From Cinnamomum chago (taxonomy: Eukaryota > Streptophyta > Magnoliopsida > Laurales > Lauraceae): 64,000 nt of DNA. Positions 19,101 through 63,466 of the stretch are shown in pieces. Position numbers and translations under genes: made by a program. The first letter of the stretch is position 1; each line of letters starts with the position of its first letter. Where the stretch lies: assembly GCA_038049695.1 (NCBI GenBank), contig CP142453.1, positions 129,591,001-129,655,000 of the forward strand, given 5' to 3'. Below the pieces are notes generated by a model. It did not search any database and was not told where the DNA came from. It saw only the letters and a program-made list of their open reading frames with translations.

Positions 19101-22100
19101 AGCACAAATGCCTCCAAATTACCTTCATCATACACAAGTGAATCCTTTGCCACTGAGCAATACTTTCATCTAGGTTGTAGTTTAAGGCAAACACCCATTT
19201 ACACCCCATTGGAAGCTTGCCCACAAAAAGATTAATCGTCTCCCAAGTGTAATTCTTCTCTGTGAAAGCTATTTTATTTTCCATTGCACTTTGCAAAGGC
19301 AAAGTTTCAAGGGTATATTTGATACTCTATGGAAGAGAAGCAGCAGGGAAACATAAAAAATAAATGACATGTGAGAAGGTAAGAGACCATGATAGGAGAC
19401 AAACTGGTAAATGTGATGAGCAGCACAGCTCATCGCCCTTTTCTCAAGGCGACAGGTAATTGTAGAGATGGACCCATAGAAGGATCCATATCGGTGGTAA
19501 CTACTATTGATGAACAGAAGCTGGAGAAGAAACATTGCCTGCATCCGAATCAGCTTGATTGATGGTGGAAGAAAATAAAAGATTGTGTTACTTTTAACCT
19601 ATGGGGTCTTATCGGGTTGCTACTGACCAAAGATTCCCAGTAAGTACATTGCCATTATTAAATTTACATGATACTGACCATTCAACAAAAGGATTGGCAG
19701 AACTAAAGGAGTGGTTATATCTAATTAAGGATGATGGGAAAGAAGAATTCTTTTTAATATAGTAAAACGAATCTATACGGCAATCAACACTAAAAATACA
19801 ACATACAAAGAAAGAAAAAGAGAGATGATGAAACCCATAGGCATCAACGATTGATGCCACAAGAAGCAAGCCAATACCGCCAAAAGTCTGAAGAAATAAA
19901 TCAATGAATTCTTTAATGATGAAAGCACAACAGATCATACGACTCTTTGCCTTGACCACAATCAACATTCAATTCCACAGTTGTTTTGAAAAACTCTTGT
20001 TCCTTTCAAGCCAAATGATAAAAGAACAACCACTGGGATACGGCTCCATAAGATATTGCATCTTTTCCTATGAGATTCAAATTTTCATTGCGCTTATAGC
20101 TTGAGAACCATATCCAATATCACCCATTCACTCCAACAAGTTTAAGGAAGCAGTCCCAAACTCACTTAATGAACAGGCACAGAATAAAGAGATGCTGCGA
20201 AAGATTGGAACCAAAAACTACAAGCATTCGCCAAAAAAGTTCCATATGCTTTCTTTCTGGTCATTGTTCAAGTAAGAATACTGTCCACAGCGGCTGTTGG
20301 AAAAAAAAAAATTAAACAGTAGGTGGCTCTTTCATTTTCCACAAGTGACCCCATCCGCTGGAAATAGATCACTAGTCTAATAAATAGCCATAGAACACTA
20401 GTGTTTTATACATGGTTCAAAATCTCGGTCTCGATCGCGGTATCGGCCGGGCCGAAAAACCGATATGATATCGGTATCGGTCGCGGATATCGGTCCGTCG
20501 CGGTCATCGCGGTATGAATTTTTTTTAATCCAAAAAAATTCACAAAAATATCCAAAAAATCCAGAATATTAGAAAATGTTGGAAAACAATATTTGTTTTC
20601 ATTAATAACAGCAATAAATCAAAATCTCGGTCACCTTAAGTTATGAGTCCTGTCTGTCTCGCAGTTCACTGTCTTTTCCAGCATTTCATATAATGCAGGC
20701 ATTATTGATGCTCATGATCAATTTATTAGTGCAAAATATAAGAAAATAAAAATAACATATCAATCATCATTTAATACTAACTTAATCATCAAATAAAGTT
20801 GTGAAATTCAAGACCTTGAAGATTAGTGACTGAGATAGATAAATCATAAAGCACTTGGGCATCAAAATGTTCATGGTTTACATGAAATTAGAGGGGACTA
20901 GTGGAGAGTAGAGACTAGAGAGAGACTGATAAGTATGACTGTATGAGTGTATGACAGATTGATAGCCTAATACCAAGTGGAGTATCGCCCTGGCTCGAGT
21001 AGATGTAGATCTATCATCTACACACTATTAATAAGCCATTAAGCCTTTGGTATCACAAATATCCTAACAAGTAACAACAATTATTTTTTGAAAAACAAAA
21101 ATTAATAAAATCATTTTCAAAATCCTAAATATATAGATCTAACATAAAAGTATGTAGATCAATCATTTACACACCATACAATGATCATGAATCATTAAAA
21201 GAACATATTTATGATGAAATCCCCAAAAAATGATATATTATAATTCAAATATTAAAAAATCCGAAAATAAAAAAATTTGAAAAAAAGTTCAAAATCATGT
21301 GTATAAGTAGATCTAGCATGAAAGTATGTAGATCTAACTTCTAAATGAAGAAAACAACACAAGTGACAAACCTCTATGCTTCATCTATAAAAAAATAAAA
21401 AAAATAAAAAACATAATAAAATGCTTTAAGTTGATTTTCTCTTACCTTAGATAATATTTTCTTCAAAAAATAGAAGTGAGATTTGAAAATATGCAAGAGA
21501 GATGTGTGATGGAGTGTGGCTGCTCCTATGGGTAGTAAGGAGATGAGAAGAGAGGAGAAAAATGAAAAAATTAGGATTTTAACCCTTTTTGACATATCTC
21601 GGTCGATATTTTCAAAATATCGGCCGAGATATCGGTTCCACCGAGATGACCGAAATCTCGGCCGATGTAGGCCGAGATTTTGGCGATTTTTACCGAGACC
21701 GATATCTCAGTGAGATATCGGCTCGGTATCGGCCAATTTTTTCAACCATGGTTTTATAAGAAAACCAGAGGGATAAACAGACGGAGTAGGCAGTTCAGTC
21801 CAAACCAATTCCCAGTTCCTCCATTAAAAAAAAGACAAAAGAAAAAAAAATTAAATGATTAATGGCAGCTCCAACAAGTTCATCGATTGTTATTTTTTCA
21901 GGGTTTGAGCAGTTCATACAAGCTTTTGACCATGGCTTTAAAAATCGGTCGAGTCTATGTCAACCGCAGAATCAACTTGGACTCAGCCAGTGGTGATTCG
22001 AGTCACCCTCTGATTCACATATATGGCCGATTCCTTTCTATTTTTGGGTTTTTAAGGCTTTTTCCCTTTTTTGAAAGAGGGTGTCAAAGGTCTCTAATAA

Positions 22101-52940: not shown

Positions 52941-52949
52941 TAAAAACAA
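52941..52949. repeat. Left 9-bp target-site duplication of the MULE
   Basis: 'taaaaacaa' directly abuts the left terminal repeat and is repeated exactly at 63458-63466. Nine base pairs is the normal Mutator duplication length. Confidence 0.97.
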
Positions 52950-53086
52950 GAGGAATTTACCAAATAAATCCCTGTAGGTCCCTATACCACTCATGGGGTC
53001 CCAAAAAAATAGTATTATTGGATTAGGTCCTCAAGGGCTGTATTTGTATTTTTTTTTGTATTTTGGCTCTATGGCCGATATCGGCC
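52950..53086 (+). repeat. Left terminal inverted repeat of the MULE
   Basis: It begins 'gaggaatttacc' and ends with the 14-bp palindrome ggccgatatcggcc. It pairs with 63321-63457, with about eight mismatches over 137 bp. A second palindrome copy follows just inside at 53117-53130 and an imperfect one at 53503-53516. It presumably contains the promoter of the PMD-Ulp1 gene and a transposase-binding site. Confidence 0.95.
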
Positions 53087-53267
53087 ATTGTATTTTTTTT
53101 TGTAACTTGGCTATATGGCCGATATCGGCCATTGACAGTTACCCCACTCACGCGCGCTGTGGCCCCTTTTTCTTTTCGTTCGACCCGCACTCCCCCATTC
53201 CCTTTCGTTTCTCTCTGTCAACAGTCTCCCCCCTTTCCAGTGGTCCCAAGCAGGTGGTCCCAAGCAC

Positions 53268-53279
53268 TTTGGCGCCAAA
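53268..53279. promoter_or_regulatory. E2F-like palindromic site in the 5' leader
   Basis: 'tttggcgccaaa' is a perfect palindrome matching the E2F consensus TTTSGCGC on both strands. It lies 17 bp before the proposed ATG of the PMD-Ulp1 gene. Function is inferred from the match only. Confidence 0.4.
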
Positions 53280-53296
53280 TTTTCGAAGGTGGCTGG

Positions 53297-56200
53297 CATG
53301 GAGGTACGTTTCTTCCTCATTTCAACCATTTTTCTTTGTGCCTTGGATTTTGAATGAAGACGTGTTGTGCTAGGGTTTGGTTTGATGGCTGTTATTCTCT
53401 ACTTCTTCTCCTCATCTTCCCATCTTCTTCTCATCTTCATTACCCATTGTGCAGACGTGATTTCTAGATTTCCAACTTTCAATTTGACATATTGAATTGT
53501 ATATGGCCGATATCGGCTATATTTTATAAATCTCCCCCAACTACTGCAGTTTATGAATAGCTTCTTCCCTGTTGATGCGCGTGACCTGTAGGATAATAGA
53601 GTTGTCATGGAATCTATTGTGACGCACAAATCGATTATTAAAGACCATTTCTGAGTTCCAGAAAGATATAGGCATCAAGTAAAATGATTAAAAGCTTACA
53701 ATTATGAACAAATATGAAGTAAGAGTCACAATCAGTTTGAATGCTTTAAGCACTATAATTGTTATTGTTCCATTAGGTCTGGAGCAGTGTAACATACCTT
53801 CTAAAGGATGTTCTCATTGGTGATGTTACATTGGTGATTATACCATTAGGTCTGGAGCAGGAATGATAACATCCTCTGGTGATGTTTACCTCTGGTAAGT
53901 GAACTTCTAAAGGATGTCCTCATTCCTGGTGTCAGCCGTGACGGTTGTTATGCTAGTAAGCTTAGTATTGAATAATATCATGAGTAATTCATTCTACTGA
54001 TTGATACACAACAAAAAATCATGATGTTAACTGGCATATTTGTTCTCCTAAAAGGGTGTGTTGTTTCCAATTAAAACCTTCCATGATTGGAAAGTTTGCT
54101 TGTTCTGAATTGGAATCCCCAAAAGAGCGAGGAAAAAAAAAAGTACGAAGTATGAAATATAGAGAGGAGCATGTGGGGGGTGGGGGAAGAAAACAAAATT
54201 CAGGAGGCCATGTGCATTAGGAGGGGGGGGGTGTGGAAAGAGAAATCTGAGGAAAAATGGGATTCGTTTTTCCTTGGTATTTTATTTATAGTGGTTCGGT
54301 TTTTGAAAGCCTCCGTCAAAATTTGTAAGACTCATCAGTCATCTCCCTCTCTCTTTCTCTCTCTTCCTGGCTTGTAAATAGAAGACAAAGCGACGTATGA
54401 GCTTTTTTTAAATGATAATTGGTCGCGGAAACTACTGTATTCCACAGGTTTATGTGATACAATTTTTGTGACTGTCTTCCACTTTTGTTTGGTTGTTTAT
54501 TTTAGTGTTCTTTTACTTATTCTGTCTTAGTATAAGGATTTATGACTTCATCAATGTACATGATCAGTGTCCTATTTAGAGTCTCACATGGTAGAGGGTG
54601 GAATCTTGAATAGAGTTTGATATTCTTTTGTAGGAAGGTGAAGGACAAGCCCCCAAATCTCCGAATGTTCTACTATACAACCAATGCCTTCATGTGTCAG
54701 AGGGAATTCGACAAGGAGAGGTATATTGTATCACACGAAATCAATTACACTTTTCAAAGTATCGATGCAAATTGTTATTTGATATATTCGTTTTGTACTT
54801 GCTAACCACATTTTGTAATTGTTACGTTGCTAGGATTTTGGGAGGCTAAGATGCATACCAACCAATCCGGACCGAAACATATGGCAGCTAACAAAACAAC
54901 AGAAGGCATACGTGAGGCAGACGGGCCTCCATTACTTAGCTGAAATCGATCGCATGGTCATTGATCACGCGCTAATAACCGGTCTAGTCGAAAGGTGGCG
55001 CCCGGAGACAAATACTTTCCACTTTCCATCGGGTGAAGCAACTGTCACCCTTGAAGATGTTGCATACATCTACGGCCTACCCGTAGATGGCCCACCTGTG
55101 GCTGGACGAACTTTCCCGGGGAAGTTCGTCGCATCGGTGTGCGAGGAGGTTCTTGGCATCCGACCGGATAAGCGTGACTACCATGGTATAACAGTGAAGT
55201 TCAAGTGGCTTGAAGACAATTTTGCAGCCGCCGAACTTGAGAAAAAAAAGAAACATAAAAAATACAAGGATTACGAGATCCGGGCAACGCGAGCCTATCT
55301 CTTCTTTCTAGTGTCCGGTCAGATCGTTTCGCAGACTACTGGTGCCCGTGGACCGGCCTACATACTAGAGCTGTTCAAAGAATTTAAACCGTATGCATGG
55401 GCACCGGCTTGTCTCGCGAATCTATATAGGATGTTGACCAATGCCTCTCGATGGGGTCCGGAGAAGTTAGTTGCTGTGGAAGAGGGGAAAGATAAGCAAG
55501 GTGAGCTTGAAGGGCACCTGTGCAGGACGCCAACCGGGCCTCTACAGCTATTACAGGTCTTCTTTCTCATAGTGACTGTTAGTTTGAATTTTTTATTTAA
55601 TTCGAACTAACTCTTTATTGTGATGTAATCTGGTGCAGATATGGGCTTATACAAGGATGTCAATCGGAAGGTGTCCTAAGCCAAAAGAATCGTGGCAGGG
55701 GGACATACAATTCCCACTGTGCAAGACATGGATGAACAGGTTGCCTGAAAATCCACCACTCACCTCAGTCAAGGAGGTGAGAGGACAGTTAAACAATTTG
55801 AAAGTTGACGAGGTAAAACAAGAAATTGACTAGCTCCTTAGTTCGGTGTTCGATTATATGCATTCTATTTTGCTGAGATACTGGACTAACTGTTTTGTTG
55901 CTGATGTGTATTGCAGTTCATATGGCAACCATATGAAGGGTTTAGATCAAAGTTTTTTTCAAAAGTATCTAAAGTGGATCGCACTCTCCTACATTCGTCC
56001 ACTGTTTTGATATGGTATTGGATTGTCGAGCGCCACAACACTTGGCGTGTTATGAAACAATTCGGGCTCAAACAAATAGTCCCACCGCCTTTTACAATGC
56101 CGATCTTAAGACGAGAAAGGACATTCAGGTCTGTTGTCGATTATGCGGCAACGATGGATAAGGATGTCGTGTCGACGTGGGGAGCAAGAGCCACTCTTGG

Positions 56201-58025
56201 ACTTCAAGGTGAGGCTTGTGCTGCAGCTGCGCAGTCCGAAGAGTACATGGAATGGTATACGAAGAATACGTTGATGTTTATTGGTAGAGGAGAGGCAACG
56301 GAGCAGCCTGCGTCCGATGTCCCCACAGCTGAGGTGCTTGCAGAGGAGACCCGCACTGAGGATGAGCCCACCATCCCACAGAAGCATGTATATCAAATGC
56401 ACCCTATAATGGACTGTTACACTAGTTCCTTGATTTCTTTGTTCAAACTGTCGCTAATTCAATTACTTCTTTGATCAACAGGCTCAAGAAATGGTCGCAC
56501 GCATCGAACGGAGCCTCGAACGTTCTGCACGCAGGAAAACGCCAATCGACAAGCTATCCATGTCAATTTCGAAAAAGCTAGCTAAGTTTAAGTCGGGTTT
56601 TGGGACGAATTGGAAGAACTTCTCATTCGATGGATGCAGCAGCTCGGCGTCTGATAATGATGCCACGGAGAAGAAAATGTTGATCACATTTAAGCATACG
56701 AAGAGGCCTGCGCAAAAAAGCCCGGCTAAAAAGACTAAATCTGCTAAAAGAAAATCCACGGTCGAGGAACCGAACCTCGTGAGCATAAATGCAGAGGGAT
56801 CAGGTAGCAGCAGGGAACAACCCATGACTGAGCCAGCACTCCAGGACATTGTTCAGACCCCACCAGTCAGCAGGACTTTGTTCGCATCCCCATTAACGGT
56901 CTCCAGTGAATCTGCTATGGTGGTTGCAGCGCCATTGGCCACCCTTGAGTCATTGGTATGGAGGATGAAACGGTTGCCCCGAATGCGCAAGATACCGTTG
57001 AAGTTTGAAGACTACACGCATGATATTGTTCGGAGCGACTATGTGCTGTCTGAACCCGACAAATTCTTCCTCAAAGGTTTTCTAGAATACTACGATGACA
57101 GGTATGTTGGTTTAGTGTTGATCATGTTAATTTGTTTGATTGAAGTGCTTACGTGTGTTTGGACATATTCACTGTTACAGGAAAGATGAGCTTGGTGATG
57201 TTTGCACATTGATAAAGGCAGATGATTTGAAGAGTGTCCTTGATGAGGGAACTTGGATGGACACTAACATCATTTATTATTACTTTGAGATATTGAGAAT
57301 TGGGTGTGATTCATGCTTCATTGCCGACCCGAGTGTCTGTGTAAGTACAACCTAAACAGTGGTTGGGTAAATCCTTTATTATATGTATATTGGAACATTG
57401 TACCCACATTGATCAATTCAATGTATGCAGAGTTGGTGGCGCGATAGTGGTGACACAGCCGTCGAGGCAGTTTTTGGGAAGTACGGGCACCGGGTTTTGG
57501 ACGCGAGGGAAGCGCGAACGCTGATATTCATTGTCTATCAGAGGTCACATTTCACATTATTGGTCGGACTGGTTGATGAGAAGAGATGGGAGTTTTACAA
57601 TAGCATGGAGGGCGATCGCCGATCATTTAAACATGCGCAGAAGTTTGTAAGTTTTTCTTCCTTCATGCCAAGAGTCAGTTTATCTCGAACGCGTATTTCA
57701 AATTCTTCTGTCCATTGCTGACATTTAGACCCGATGTTTTATGTAGTTGGGATGGTTGGCCGAATGGTATAGCCATTTTGGGTGGAGCGACCCATTTCTA
57801 TGGCCACTAGTTGAAAAGACGGACATCCCTCGACAGAACAATACGAGTGATTGTGGAGTATTTGCAATGGCCTTTGCCACTCACTGTGTCCACCGGCTTC
57901 CCATCGCCTTTACGCAATCAGACATGCGTTACTTTCGAAGCAAAATAGTCGTGGAAATCTTCAAGCGGAGTTGGCAATTGAACGCTAATAGACTGGGCTT
58001 GACCCACTTGGCATCAATCCCATGA
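53297..58025 (+). CDS. Plant mobile domain-Ulp1 (C48) protease fusion carried by the MULE
   Basis: Exons: 53297-53302, 54634-54720, 54834-55556, 55639-55812, 55917-56387, 56482-57101, 57181-57340, 57431-57646, 57747-58025, all GT-AG and in frame, 911 aa. The first exon codes only Met-Glu before a strong GAG|gtacgt donor and is the least certain. Residues about 5-420 form an aminotransferase-like plant mobile domain (LLYNQCLHVSEGI, RQTGLHYLAEIDR, LVERWRPETNTFHFPSGEAT, EDVAYIYGLPVDG, QIWAYTRM, VERHNTWRVMKQFG). A Lys-rich linker follows, with an NLS-like patch at about 558-578. The C-terminus is a Ulp1-type cysteine peptidase: His787 (RSHFTLLVG), Asn804 (WEFYNSM), Gln849 and Cys855 (RQNNTSDCGVF). 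The usual catalytic Asp is Asn here. The family cleaves SUMO or ubiquitin-like proteins; the true substrate is unknown. It could protect the element from SUMO- or PMD-dependent silencing (inference). It converges on the transposase gene. Confidence 0.88.
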
Positions 58026-58309
58026 AGAATACGATCAGCCGGGAACTTTGAAAGTGGATTAGCCTGCATGTGATCAAATGTCAATCACTTCATAACTCAG
58101 ATTGTATAGAAAGATTGGTGGTTGTGGTGTTCATGATGATTTGTATAGAATTTGACATTCAAATTGTTCTAAATGGGTTGTATAGAATTTTCATTTGTAT
58201 AGAATTTCATGGTTGTCTGTGTTTCATGGTTGTTTGTGTTTCTTGATGTTTCTTGATGTTCAAGATTTGTACACCTCTGTGTTTCTTGATGTTTCTTCCA
58301 AACTCAGCT

Positions 58310-59345
58310 TCCCTTAACTGAGGCAAAACAGGACCTGCAGAAAATGGCCGATATCGGTCATAATATCGACCGATATCGGCCAAAATAGCAGTCTCAGGCA
58401 CCCTTAACTGGGAGTATGAAAAAACAGGACTGCAGAAAATGGCCGATATCGGTCATAATATCGACCGATATCGGCCAAAATAGCAGTCTCAGGCACCCTT
58501 AACTGAGAGTATGAAAAAACAGGACCTGCAGAAAATGGCCGATATCGGTCATAATATCGACCGATATCGGCCAAAATAGCAGTCTCAGGCACCCTTAACT
58601 GGGAGTATGAAAAAACAGGACTGCAGAAAATGGCCGATATCGGTCATAATATCGACCGATATCAGCCAAAATAGCAGTCTCAGGCACCCTTAACTGAGAG
58701 TATGAAAAAACAGGACTGCAGAAAATGGCCGATATCGGTCAACATTACGACCGATATCGGCCAAAATATCAGTCTCAGGCACCCTTAACTGAGAGTATGA
58801 AAAACAGGACCTGCAGAAAATGGCCGATATCGGTCATGTATTGACCGATATCGGCCATTCTGTACATGTACTGTTTTTTCATACTCTCAGTTAAGGGTGT
58901 CTGAGACTGCTATTTTGGCCGATATCGGTCGATATTATGACCGATATCGGCCGTTCTCTGCAGGTTCTGTTTTTTCATAGTCTCAGTTAAGGGTGCCTGA
59001 GACTGATATTTTGGCCGATATCGGTCATAATATCGACCGATATCGGCCATTTTCTGCAGTCCTGTTTTTTCATACTCCCAGCGGCCATTTTCTGCAGTCC
59101 TATTTTTTCATACTCCCAGTTAAGGGTGCCTGAGACTGCTATTTTGGCCGATATCGGTCATAATATCGACCGATATCGGCCATTTTCTGCAGTCCTGTTT
59201 TTTCATACTCCCAGTTAAGGGTGCCTGAGACTGCTATTTTGGCCGATATCGGTCGATATTATGACCGATATCGGCCATAATTTCATACTCATGCTCATTT
59301 AACTGAGAGTATAAAAAACAGGTCATGTATATTAGAATGGCCGAT
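58310..59345. repeat. Inverted array of ten ~95-bp palindromic units inside the MULE
   Basis: Each unit holds a 36-bp module: ggccgatatcggtc, an ~8-bp spacer, then its exact complement gaccgatatcggcc. Each arm is itself palindromic around ccgatatcgg. Modules start at 58346, 58441, 58537, 58632, 58727, 58822 (first orientation) and at 58917, 59013, 59146, 59241 (second orientation). Orientation is shown by the flanking text. The first six carry 'aaaatagcagtctcaggcac' and 'cccttaactgagagtatgaa'. The last four carry the reverse complements. The array therefore folds back on itself around 58860-58880. A truncated module lies near 59339. It sits between the 3' ends of the two convergent genes, starting about 285 bp after one stop codon and ending about 535 bp from the other. 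Short open frames inside are by-products of the repeat. Confidence 0.95.
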
Positions 59346-59881
59346 ATCCTTGCTCTCCCTCAATGCATACTTGGTTTCCATAGAAAGATTGGAATTTTTT
59401 TTTTTTGTGTTAAAACTGTAGTTGTTACCTGAAAGATTTATGTAGGTGAGATTTGTGCTGAGGTAATTATCTTCCTGAGATCCAAGATGTCCATTCATTA
59501 TGTTCAATCGAAGAGGTTCAACAAGCAGATACAGATTCGATGTTCACATAAAGCGTGCACAATTAAAAAAGGATCACATATCATTTATGAAATACAGTAA
59601 TACAGGACTCCCAAAATACACAATTACAGTCCACATTTGCATATATCTAGGCATCATCAATGGAAGTGTATGCATCATCAAAGTACTCGCCACGCAGCTG
59701 CAGCACCTGTTGTTACAGGAACTGGGAGTGTCGTGGTATGTGTACTGTGATGAAATAAAAACTCCCTTGATTAATACATCCTACGGACAGCTATCTGTAT
59801 ACATCATTAAGGGTCTTCTTAAAAAAACTGCAACCAGAATACATGCCAAAATGAATATACATTCGATGCTGTTCTAATTCG

Positions 59882-62433
59882 TCAACTGAGCACGGGAGGA
59901 TTGCGACAACTTCCACGGTTGTGGCCTCTCCCCTTGCAATTTGAGCACGTTACTGCCCTTCGAACACGACCAATATCTTCAGTCCGAATCCTGTTCTTTT
60001 TCGGGCGTCCGGGCTGTTTACTGGACATTGGTGGAATAACTCTCAATTCGGCTGTGTGCTCCCATTGCTTGCTGTCACGGGTAGCATGAATCACTTCACT
60101 GTACGTTGTACGATACGTGCTCGCAAAATACCAATGCTCACAGAATTCGTATGGATCGTAGTTTCTCATTTTCATTGCAGCGATAGCATGGCAACACGGG
60201 ATACCCAATATCTCCCATTTCCGACATGTGCAGGATTTCCGTTCGAGATCAACAACATCAACATACTCCGCAGACTGCACCTGAAATTCTACGATGCCAG
60301 CCACACGAACAAGCAATCGGCGAGCTTCATCCATTTCTTGACTGAGAACTTTCTCCGCATACGGGGTAAGACGAGTTGTTATGCTTTCAGACTGAAGATG
60401 CCGCTTTTGATAGAAGTCCATTAACTTTCCTCGTATCTCCTCAACTTGTTTCGTAATGGGCAGGACTCGCGTGTCTTTTAGGAGACTATTAGTGCACTCG
60501 GCTGCATTGCTAGTTAGCATGTCGTACCGACGGCCTTCTATGTATGCATTTGCCCACCGTTGCCGCCCAATTGCATCAATATAATTGAAAGCCTCCTGGC
60601 TAACTGCACGGATATCTGTCATATAAGCCTCGTACTCGCATGGTCTGTATGACGTTGCTGCACGCCAAAATTTCATCACGATTGCCCCGTCACTGAAAGC
60701 AGCTTTGATGTTCTCAGCAATGTGACGGCAGCAGTAACAGTGCATTGCATGCGGTATGGTGTTCTTCAACGCTGGAATGAGACCCTTCTGCCGGTCTGAA
60801 ACAATAGTAAGGTTAGTTGGCTCTCCTAGAGATATGGACAAGTTCGCAAGGAACCACTCCCAGCTATCGCGCCGCTCGGCTTCGGCAAAGGCAAAGGCGA
60901 TGGGAAGTAGCTTATGGTTGGCATCATGCGTCACGGCAACAAGCAACACACCTGGATACTTGCCTCGGAGGTGTGAACCGTCTACAGCAATCACTGGTCT
61001 CAACGAAGACGTGTAAGATCTTATGCACGGTCCGAACGCCCAAAAAAATCTTCTGAAACGGTCATCCGAAGTGGTATCTATGTTTGTCACAGTGCCAGGG
61101 TTAGTCAACTCAAGTTCCTTACAATAACGGGGTAGCAGCTGGAAGGACTCTTCATATGATCCTCGTACAATACAAAGTGCCATCTCCTTTGCTATATAAG
61201 CCTTTCTGTAACTAATTATTGAACCAAACTCCATCTGATAGTCATTCATGATCTCCTTCGGTTTCAAATTCACATTCTGCCTGACCCGTTCCATGATGAA
61301 CTCTCTAATAAGCGCCGAGGTTGCCTGTTTATGTGCCATGCCCATCAGTGGCTTTGAGCATCGATGGTTAGGATTGTACGTCCTAACTTTAAATTGTGGT
61401 CCTGATTCGACAATCGAAGCATGAATACGCCATGGACAATCCTGATCTTTGCATCGTGCAGTCACTTTGGTCATGTTGGTCTTCAAATGTTTAAGAGTGA
61501 AGTTACCGTATATTGCAAACTTCGCCAACGTATTCCGGAACATCTGTCGATCGGGAAAAACACGGCCAATCCACATCTCTCGTGCGGAGTTGTTGCCAAA
61601 TTCCATTTCCATGTCATCAGGCTCCATTTTATCATCAAATTCAACTTTTGGAATTTCATTAGACCGTAGATCGGTATTGGTTTGATTGACTTCATCCCTG
61701 CAACATTCGGCCTTGAAGATTGGTTTTGAATGAAGCTGTCCATTAGAGGGATGTCGGTTAAGATGGATATCATCAGCACGCATCATCCCAAGGTCGATAT
61801 GACCATCTAACGCCTCATTGCATACATCATCATCATCCGGCACAGATGGATATTGCATGTCTGTGTCATCGCGGAGATCAGCGGTGGGTTGTTCTCGAGG
61901 ACTTGTTGATAACTTCACTTGTTCCCTCTTCAAACTGGCTGACGACCTCCTTGGCATTTTTGGACTCTTAAATCCTACTGCGGTCCTTCGTAACCTACAA
62001 TGAATCGGGGCATAAATAAGCAAGTGCTAACATAAATAATTAATTTCGCATTTAAAATTTAGTGAGACAATTAGTAGGCATACCTGTCCTCTCCCCCTAT
62101 ACTTTCATTGTTGTTCGGACTATTAGAGACGTACAAGTATATCCCATTCGTTTCATTTCTGGATGCTTTGAACATAAGACGAACATCATTATCATCGTCA
62201 ATGCTTGCCATTGAGAATGCCCGTCCGTTGTGATGAAGGTATTGCATGCTTAAATCCTGGATGGCTGTATCCCAATTGGATGATTCCATTGCTTCGTTAG
62301 CCAGGCATTGATAAGAGATGTCTGACGATAAATATTTCATTTTTTGTTTTCCTCCACTGTACACCGGACGGCTGATGTCGAATTGAAAGTCACCGTCATA
62401 GTGGAATATGAACAACACCTCTCTGTCTGACAT
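59882..62433 (-). CDS. MULE transposase (MURA/MudrA-like), two exons
   Basis: Catalyses cut-and-paste movement by binding the terminal repeats. Exon 1 is 62433-62084 and exon 2 is 61994-59882, joined by an 89-bp GT-AG intron, giving 820 aa with no interruptions. Exon 1 encodes a PB1-like N-terminal region (MSDREVLFIFHYDGDFQFD) as found in MuDR-type transposases. Then comes an acidic linker and the MuDR zinc-binding-like region (about 250-340: VFPDRQMFRNTLAKFAIYGN, ARCKDQDCPWRIHAS). The MULE catalytic core has Asp455 (IAVDGSHLRGKYPG), Asp517 (IVSDRQKG) and probably Glu616 (SNAAECTNSLL). A SWIM zinc finger follows (Cys705, Cys707, Cys717, His719; SCTCRKWEILGIPCCHA), and a C-terminal CCHC knuckle (CSNCKGRGHNRGSC, 800-813). 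All expected parts are present, so it looks functional. Its promoter would lie toward the right terminal repeat. Confidence 0.96.
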
Positions 62434-63320
62434 GCTATCATTAAATCACAGGAAAATTATGAAGATATCAGTAAAATGTAGGCAGATTCAGCATGACAAT
62501 TTCAACAGATCGGTATTAGACCCATTTCATTTGTCCCTAGCTGCTATTCAAAAAATAATTAGACCGTATTCCACCTATTCTCCTATTGTTCATCAATCAG
62601 CAAGACAACCAACTCCAATTGGATGAGATACTGGCGTTGAAGTATCCATGTTTGCAAGATCAATATAGAACAATATACAAACATACAAACTAGACAATAA
62701 CATTTATGGATTTACTGATGCACACTAAACATAAATAAAATGGAATGCACGACCCACCATAGCTCCAGCTGCTGGATTGAACAGAACCCTGAAAACGACT
62801 ACACAGAATGTTTCAAAATGACGCTCTCTCAAACAGTTCTAGGGTATTCATGATGACTGTGGATTTTCGACAGTTCTAGGGTTAACAAGAATGAAATAAA
62901 GGAGAATGGGTACTCGATTGATGAAAGTGGGTTTCTTACAAACCCTTCAAACAGAAAGTTCTTCTATAAGCATTAAAGAAAGCCTGGTTTAGAGACCGGG
63001 TACTCTAATGATGACAAAGGATTTTACAGAGATCTAGGGTTAACAAGAATGCATTAATGGAGATAAATCAATGTTACGATGTCACATTAGAGAAGATAGT
63101 GCATTAAGATGTGTGTTTAATGTACAAACCTACCTCTCAATGAAGTCCAACAACCGATTCACAGAAGTTTTTTTTACATGGTTTTTGAAAGGAAAAAAAT
63201 CGCCATACAATAGTCGAGGAGAGGAATAGGGATGTCGCATAAACGAGAGTTGTGAGCAAAACACATTCGGGACAAGAGAAATAGGGATGTCGCATAACGG
63301 CCGATATCGGCCAATATTAC
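62434..63320. other. Transposase 5' region inside the MULE
   Basis: Non-coding DNA between the transposase ATG and the right terminal repeat. The phrase 'ctagggttaacaagaatg' and neighbouring words recur (near 62875 and 63042), giving a degenerate duplication of about 165 bp. The phrase 'agggatgtcgcataa' recurs at 63228 and 63282. An extra palindrome ggccgatatcggcc lies at 63299-63312, just inside the terminal repeat. Confidence 0.7.
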
Positions 63321-63457
63321 GGCCGATATCGGCCATAGAGCCAAAACACAAAAAAAAATATAAATACAGACCTTGAGGACCTAATCCGATAATACGGTTT
63401 TCTTGGGACCCCATGAGTGGTATAGGGACCTACAGGGATTTATGTGGTAAATTCCTC
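63321..63457 (-). repeat. Right terminal inverted repeat of the MULE
   Basis: The inner edge starts with the palindrome ggccgatatcggcc (63321-63334) and the outer edge ends 'ggtaaattcctc'. It matches 52950-53086 reversed. Confidence 0.95.
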
Positions 63458-63466
63458 TAAAAACAA
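63458..63466. repeat. Right 9-bp target-site duplication of the MULE
   Basis: 'taaaaacaa', identical to 52941-52949. Confidence 0.97.

Follow-up and report, generated by a model that had tools for sequence, protein, structure and literature searches.

A probable protein-binding array of palindromes, rather than a hairpin, inside a Mutator-like transposon of Cinnamomum chago

Here, we report a fold-back array of paired palindromes in Cinnamomum chago, carried by a Mutator-like element (MULE) in a 64-kb window (the whole 64,000-nucleotide stretch analyzed, from contig CP142453.1 of assembly GCA_038049695.1; positions count from its first letter). The array has its motif and spacing in common with the element's own ends, lies between the element's two genes, keeps the motif nearly constant while unit number changes among copies, and switches orientation on palindromes. 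Judged from sequence, it is probably a landing platform for a protein rather than a hairpin. The reading we favor, at a little over an even chance, is a cluster of DNA-binding sites for an element-encoded protein, comparable to those of VANC proteins; the binding, the identity of the protein and its effect are what we infer.

The element (Table 1) is flanked on both sides, without mismatch, by the 9-bp target duplication TAAAAACAA, has the long terminal inverted repeats (TIRs) of a MULE, and encodes a MURA-type transposase (PF10551, 2e-18; PF03108, 6.1e-15; PF04434, 6.7e-10). In a foldback element the fold-back repeats are the ends, whereas this array lies 5.4 kb in from the left end and 4.1 kb in from the right. 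Its placement between two convergent genes, claimed by the first-pass annotation of this DNA, was confirmed: a single transposon carries both, and the array lies at their 3' ends, at distances of 286 and 534 bp from the two stop codons. Beside the transposase domains, a Pfam scan of seven unspliced open reading frames (ORFs; E up to 0.001) returned only a plant mobile domain (PMD) and a C48 domain, the latter match covering the domain's last part (profile 155 to 211 of 217), with no hit for DUF1985 or DUF287. Upstream of the transposase gene, a direct repeat of ~65 bp (62842-62905 and 62998-63063, 80% alike) occurs in the window and in siblings.

Table 1. Coordinates of the element, its genes and its palindromes in the window
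Feature	Position	Strand	Remarks
Whole MULE	52950..63457, 10,508 bp		Autonomous architecture; perfect 9-bp target-site duplication, inverted ends, transposase domains
Left target-site duplication	52941..52949		TAAAAACAA
Right target-site duplication	63458..63466		TAAAAACAA
Left TIR	52950..53094	+	145 bp, 92% to right one
Right TIR	63313..63457	-
Left-TIR palindrome	53073..53086		GGCCGATATCGGCC; starts at base 124 from left end
Second left palindrome	53117..53130		44 bp further in (44-bp tandem duplication)
Left subterminal palindrome	53505..53518		GGCCGATATCGGCT; one base off
Right-end palindrome pair	63299..63334		22 bp apart
Accessory gene (several ORFs taken as exons)	54912..58025	+	PMD (PF10536), then partial Ulp1/C48 protease domain (PF02902)
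Fold-back array of palindromic units	58311..59348
Five full forward units	58311..58781	+
Central core	58822..58856		Orientation switch, forward to reverse
Reverse units	58858..59240	-	Includes 38-bp partial duplication at 59044-59119
Last core	59241..59276		Second orientation switch
Degenerate forward half-unit	59299..59348	+	Array end
Transposase main exon	59882..62023	-	DBD_Tnp_Mut, MULE and SWIM domains
Probable first transposase exon	62071..62433	-	120 aa; no Pfam hit

Within the array, a core of the form GGCCGATATCGGTC-(7 or 8 nt)-GACCGATATCGGCC occurs ten times in ~95-bp units (starts at 58346, 58441, 58537, 58632, 58727, 58822, 58917, 59013, 59146, and 59241), with one base substituted in the core at 58632. 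Cores are spaced 95 to 96 bp apart with a single 133-bp step. Orientation was read from the non-palindromic linkers and changes twice, each time on a core; the sixth forward unit (58782-58857) ends on the central core. The first-pass annotation had described ten units, six one way and four the other, which is correct when cores are counted; ten cores in both orientations stand, but the degenerate forward half-unit at the array's end had gone unmentioned. Of the 19 measured arrays, the window included, 15 yielded a counterpart of this half-unit (L041, L042, L047, and L049 did not). In two reverse units (59013-59181), the 8-nt core spacer reads GATATTAT where the orientation of the unit calls for ATAATATC, an inversion that looks like a flip of the core between its two palindromic arms. 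Inverted arms within the array reach 214 nt at 93%, and its self-complementarity is far beyond chance: the earlier claim of a self-complementary fold of ~1 kb was borne out by a predicted RNA fold of 58310-59300 at -778.4 kcal/mol, against -263.0 +/- 9.0 for 20 shuffles (DNA fold, -495.7 against -113.9 +/- 5.7).

For sibling copies, the array served as query against the genome (1.06 Gb, 14 contigs; 413 matches; best 40 of 103 candidates scored), and 39 nonwindow sites were grouped by hand among the matches listed, 20 of which were fetched (10 kb each). These siblings were picked by array similarity, with the array as bait, a bias lessened by a search with transposase DNA (best 40 of 800 candidates scored). 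Transposase sites coincided with array-search sites in 33 of the 40; two more had exact cores 1.7 to 2.2 kb off on the array side (C1:24251374-24251913 and C1:106384935-106385451), and another two (C3:38931376 and C9:58101996) gave alignments that extend from the transposase side into the last core and half-unit. The array check covers 37 of the 40, with C8:16268274, C6:65223453, and C7:15770876 left out. All 20 fetched siblings carry array sequence between both genes or their remains, one as a remnant. Part of the transposase gene is missing in L036. L050 is rearranged: it keeps both TIRs but has lost about two-thirds of its PMD/C48 gene and almost the whole array. These two were dropped from measurement, where a flanking gene end was not found, leaving 19 measured arrays (the window and 18 siblings).

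Linker counts over the 19 arrays ranged from 2 to 11 forward and from 0 to 6 reverse. The inverted arrangement with variable unit number that the first-pass annotation had proposed to check in siblings is kept in 18 of the 19. Copies lacking the array, or carrying it in one orientation only, had been named as its refutation: the array is present in every fetched copy, but L042 has forward units only and has lost its reverse arm together with the first 65 bases past the array. Even among L031 to L035, whose listed gene segments are 99.4 to 99.9% identical to the window, forward:reverse counts were 6:3, 6:4, 4:4, 4:2, and 4:3. Forward and reverse arms differ at least twofold in 14 of 18 siblings (e.g., 10:3, 2:5, and 10:0), and a near-symmetric hairpin is therefore a trait of some copies close to the window and not of the family. 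The junction, in the 18 arrays having one, is a core or a single 14-bp palindrome (L037 to L040 and L048; in L048 the script continued to a later reverse linker). The array is also kept across copy groups, drawn by eye, with genes about 2 to 3% off the window.

Units were called with a profile grown from the window consensus (203 units; 135 of 85 to 100 bp kept), and 68 distinct units from 19 elements were aligned; one column without letters was skipped in the variability count. Mean minor-allele frequency was 0.022 in the palindromic arms, 0.079 in the linker, and 0.25 in the spacer (arms versus linkers, permutation p 0.0014), and columns above 5% numbered 3 of 30 in the arms and 21 of 57 in the linker (p 0.011). 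The inner decamers CCGATATCGG reached only 0.0074, about ten times below the linkers, with both intact in 60 of 68 units and at least one broken in the other 8. The difference between inner and linker columns was matched by 2 of 50,000 permutations, the true placement of the mask ranked first of 95 shifts, and the values by orientation were 0.0083 versus 0.0539 in forward units and 0.0058 versus 0.1164 in reverse units. The tests take columns as exchangeable and units as separate, which does not hold for related units; the permutation figures are optimistic, since units within one array share their evolution and those of siblings are not independent of one another. Although methylated CpGs mutate readily, each of the four CpGs in the motif survives in 65 to 68 of the 68 units, against 42 for the one bordering the spacer. 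The constancy signal depends on the siblings, being weak by column in the window alone (2 of 30 arm versus 11 of 58 linker columns, p = 0.20; by cell, p = 0.018).

The decamer CCGATATCGG links the array to the element's ends. All 24 of its copies in the window lie inside the element, distributed among the array, the inner edges of the two TIRs, and a left subterminal site (53507). The 14-mer begins at base 124 from each element end, and its pairs are spaced 22 bp in the array (21 bp in the central core), 22 bp at the right end, and 44 bp at the left end. The spacer of unit 5 (AACATTAC) agrees with the right-end spacer (AATATTAC) at 7 of 8 bases. Among 19 sibling right ends, 16 have the 22-bp pair with both sites intact; L035 and L037 have one site, and L042 has one mutated. 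The longest exact word common to the array and the rest of the element is 15 nt in the end regions and 10 nt in the interior. In both TIRs, the palindrome is preceded by a T-rich, TATA-like stretch, and it likely lies near TIR promoters, since the account in PMC3440606 places the start sites of MuDR transcripts near +165 within the TIRs and slightly further in.

Genome-wide, 364 exact core pairs were found and none with a reversed control (individual places were given for C1 only). Further arrays with steps of about 96 bp and different spacer sequences occur at C1:101897705-101898775 and C1:3963292-3963903. The former has seven cores of one spacer kind followed by two with inverted-type spacers, which suggests that diverged relatives may fold back too. 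In viral contigs, the core pattern gave no stretches and the transposase no match, as expected because the DNA is from a plant. Elsewhere in the window, a nonautonomous element of ~1.34 kb (20411-21750; ends CATGGTT/AACCATG), which we take from its duplication length and ends to be hAT-like, has a perfect 8-bp duplication GTTTTATA (20403-20410 and 21751-21758). Its ends are rich in TATCGG/CCGATA (10 inside versus 7 in 1-20400 plus 21771-52940), and it has the word GATATCGG in common with the MULE motif, by coincidence or through a shared host factor.

Both genes look to be under selection, judged from pooled pN/pS of 0.27 in the transposase main exon (premature stop in 5 of 18 copies) and 0.14 in the PMD ORF (premature stop in 3 of 20 full-length copies). 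Elsewhere, pooled values were 0.54 in the first transposase exon, 0.41 in the middle ORF, and 0.95 in the C48 ORF (on 27 changes); each copy was compared with the window, so changes common to several copies are counted repeatedly. Of the 20 fetched siblings, 19 have the first transposase exon at full length, one of them with a gap. Read by eye, the C48 region (57425-58025) gives H...FYNSM...QNNTSDCG, where Asn presumably stands in place of the Asp of the usual triad. That residue and the value of 0.95 in the last ORF suggest that the protease may be relaxed or noncatalytic.

A conserved stem and a conserved DNA site make different demands on the arms. The commonest arm variant, G43A, is found in 12 of 68 units from six sampled elements (L038, L041, L042, L043, L046, and L047), and may stem from one event propagated by conversion. 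In the stem, column 43 pairs with column 76, and A43 faces C, an A.C mismatch, in all 12 units; as DNA, it makes GGCCGATATCGGTC perfectly palindromic (GACCGATATCGGTC) in 10 of them, the other two carrying a further change. Such a change is one that a DNA site, rather than a conserved stem, would be expected to tolerate. Among the 1,020 cells of the within-core stem, there are 30 mismatches, 13 G-T pairs, and a single paired double change (A-T at 42/77), which falls short of the compensatory change expected of an siRNA hairpin locus. The earlier suggestion of a selected ~1-kb hairpin is accordingly disfavored by the imbalanced arms, the forward-only copy, and the uncompensated G43A, and a hairpin maintained for its length is ruled out as the main reading by the unequal arms. 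A nested foldback element inserted in the window copy was also rejected, as only the ~38-bp core is common to the array and the ends, and 20 siblings have the array at the same place.

The binding-site reading is favored because CCGATATCGG occurs in the array and in both TIRs and varies less than any other part of the unit; this reading gains support from G43A, which breaks a hairpin pair yet gives a perfect DNA palindrome, and from the signs of selection on both genes. Each unit would offer two near-identical 14-bp dyad-symmetric sites, 22 bp or about two helical turns apart. The transposase or the PMD/C48 accessory protein would bind the end sites (candidate target GGCCGATATCGGYC), and the array would concentrate bound protein in the middle of the element. 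This could keep the element accessible, an antisilencing effect like that of VANC on VANDALs, or could help to bring the element's ends together. The array would grow and shrink by tandem duplication, and its fold-back layout would arise because orientation flips on palindromes. The option of an internal transposase-binding hub, one of several raised by the first-pass annotation, thus fits the sequence best, although the binding protein itself is one that we infer. Several considerations weigh against site binding. Among them are the broken decamers in 8 of 68 units and the loss or mutation of one of the two sites at 3 of 19 right ends, and conversion between a core's two arms could be an alternative cause of their likeness. 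The maize MURA site, for its part, lies nearer the element's end and is not known to be palindromic.

The VANC system is, by analogy, the nearest functional parallel to the array. As described in the parts of PMC5735166 drawn on here, the short motifs bound by VANC proteins are arrayed as tandem repeats in introns and in intergenic and terminal noncoding DNA, where gain and loss are extensive, and silencing marks disappear as a result of binding (PMC5735166 and PMC10398659, in part). The noncoding tandem repeats here likewise change rapidly around a short motif. Like the arrays of VANDAL21 and VANDAL6 in Arabidopsis, the present one belongs to a MULE, repeats a short motif in intergenic and terminal noncoding DNA, differs in repeat number between related copies, and has a motif highly enriched in its own family. 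Here, however, the motif is a 10- to 14-bp palindrome in pairs 22 bp apart, and the array folds back instead of keeping a single orientation; the reading as sites is weakened because VANC motif arrays, as far as the consulted text of PMC5735166 goes, are one-orientation. VANDAL TIRs are degenerate (PMC10398659, in part), whereas those here are clear and long. With no DUF1985/DUF287 hit in the scan above, long clear TIRs, and two orientations, the sequence indicates that the element is not a VANDAL/VANC member.

Maize MuDR, as outlined in the portions of PMC3440606 and PMC9569675 used here, also has a transposase and a second gene in convergent orientation (PMC3440606) and a 9-bp target duplication (PMC9569675), with TIRs of about 200 bp (PMC3440606) against 145 bp here. 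The second gene of the present element is a PMD/C48 gene, and those portions of PMC3440606 describe no such array. TIR promoters are known in MuDR and are only guessed here. The Foldback/Galileo elements resemble the present one in having repeated units with several transposase sites in an inverted architecture (PMC3688188, in part), the sites here being candidates; there the repeats belong to the termini, whereas the present element ends in ordinary 145-bp TIRs and carries its array internally. For Galileo, the P element, and others, a transposition-enhancer role is discussed for repeated or subterminal transposase sites in the consulted part of PMC3688188 (P-element site layout, PMC7776569, in part), and by analogy that role is open to the array too. 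A C48/ULP1 domain inside a MULE would not be peculiar to this element. ULP1-bearing MULEs are reportedly the subject of van Leeuwen et al. 2007, a likeness drawn from the title alone. Among the matches listed in the open-licence literature, searched by titles and abstract openings with subscription papers mostly outside, no MULE was described as having its TIR motifs in an internal fold-back array.

A palindromic core near both gene ends could have seeded slippage and template switching in unconstrained DNA, leaving a neutral satellite that hitch-hikes without function; we consider this unlikely, but to be taken seriously. It fits the variation in unit number among L031 to L035, copies close to the window, and the array without a reverse arm in L042, while the palindrome-centered switches and the two inverted spacers of the window are what hairpin-driven rearrangement would produce; conservation by column is, moreover, not significant in the window by itself. 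Such a history accounts for turnover and flips and not for a motif about ten times less variable, despite its CpGs, than linkers of the same history, nor for the same motif and spacing in the terminal repeats, and the array persists across the diverged copy groups.

A hairpin could still act as RNA. Read-through transcripts would fold into a long duplex and be diced to siRNAs that limit or mark the element, a role we hold to be quite improbable. The very strong predicted fold, the convergent genes, and the presence of both orientations in 18 of 19 arrays agree with it, as does MuDR, where antisense RNA arises from failed termination between the genes and Mu killer, an inverted duplication, silences the element (both from the consulted part of PMC3440606). 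Against it stand the arm imbalance, the copy without a reverse arm, and the mismatched within-core stem with its single paired double change. The limiting of the element by siRNAs, as the first-pass annotation had proposed, is further weakened: small RNAs from the array have no exact 21-nt match elsewhere in the element, and they would act mainly on the array itself because no exact word it has in common with the rest exceeds 15 nt. Very improbable, in our judgment, is a bidirectional transcription barrier, in which bound protein or a hairpin halts read-through of the convergent genes. The position beyond both stop codons suits it, and neither AATAAA nor ATTAAA occurs on the sense strand between the stop codon and the array for either gene. 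Plant poly(A) signals are degenerate, so the missing hexamers say little, and one TGTAAT is present on the transposase side at 59628. A barrier would also leave the motif at the element ends unexplained, and unit number varies freely.

Returning to the binding-site reading, a single conserved palindrome ties the internal array to the element's own ends, and the family offers many copies that are nearly identical. That the PMD protein is targeted to DNA is thinkable and no more. Still, the system may be a second, independently evolved antisilencing counterpart of VANC, an idea we regard as doubtful. In it, the PMD/C48 protein of a long-TIR MULE would recognize a paired palindrome that adjoins the presumed promoters in both TIRs and is multiplied in the array between the genes, and this one protein would mark both promoters and both 3' ends. 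If true, plant mobile domains borne by transposable elements would be sequence-directed, which bears on how MAIN and MAIL1 find their targets. Arrays of varied size form a natural series in which site number can be set against methylation, expression, and transposition, and in which to ask whether a DNA-targeting factor gave rise to the domesticated plant mobile domain.
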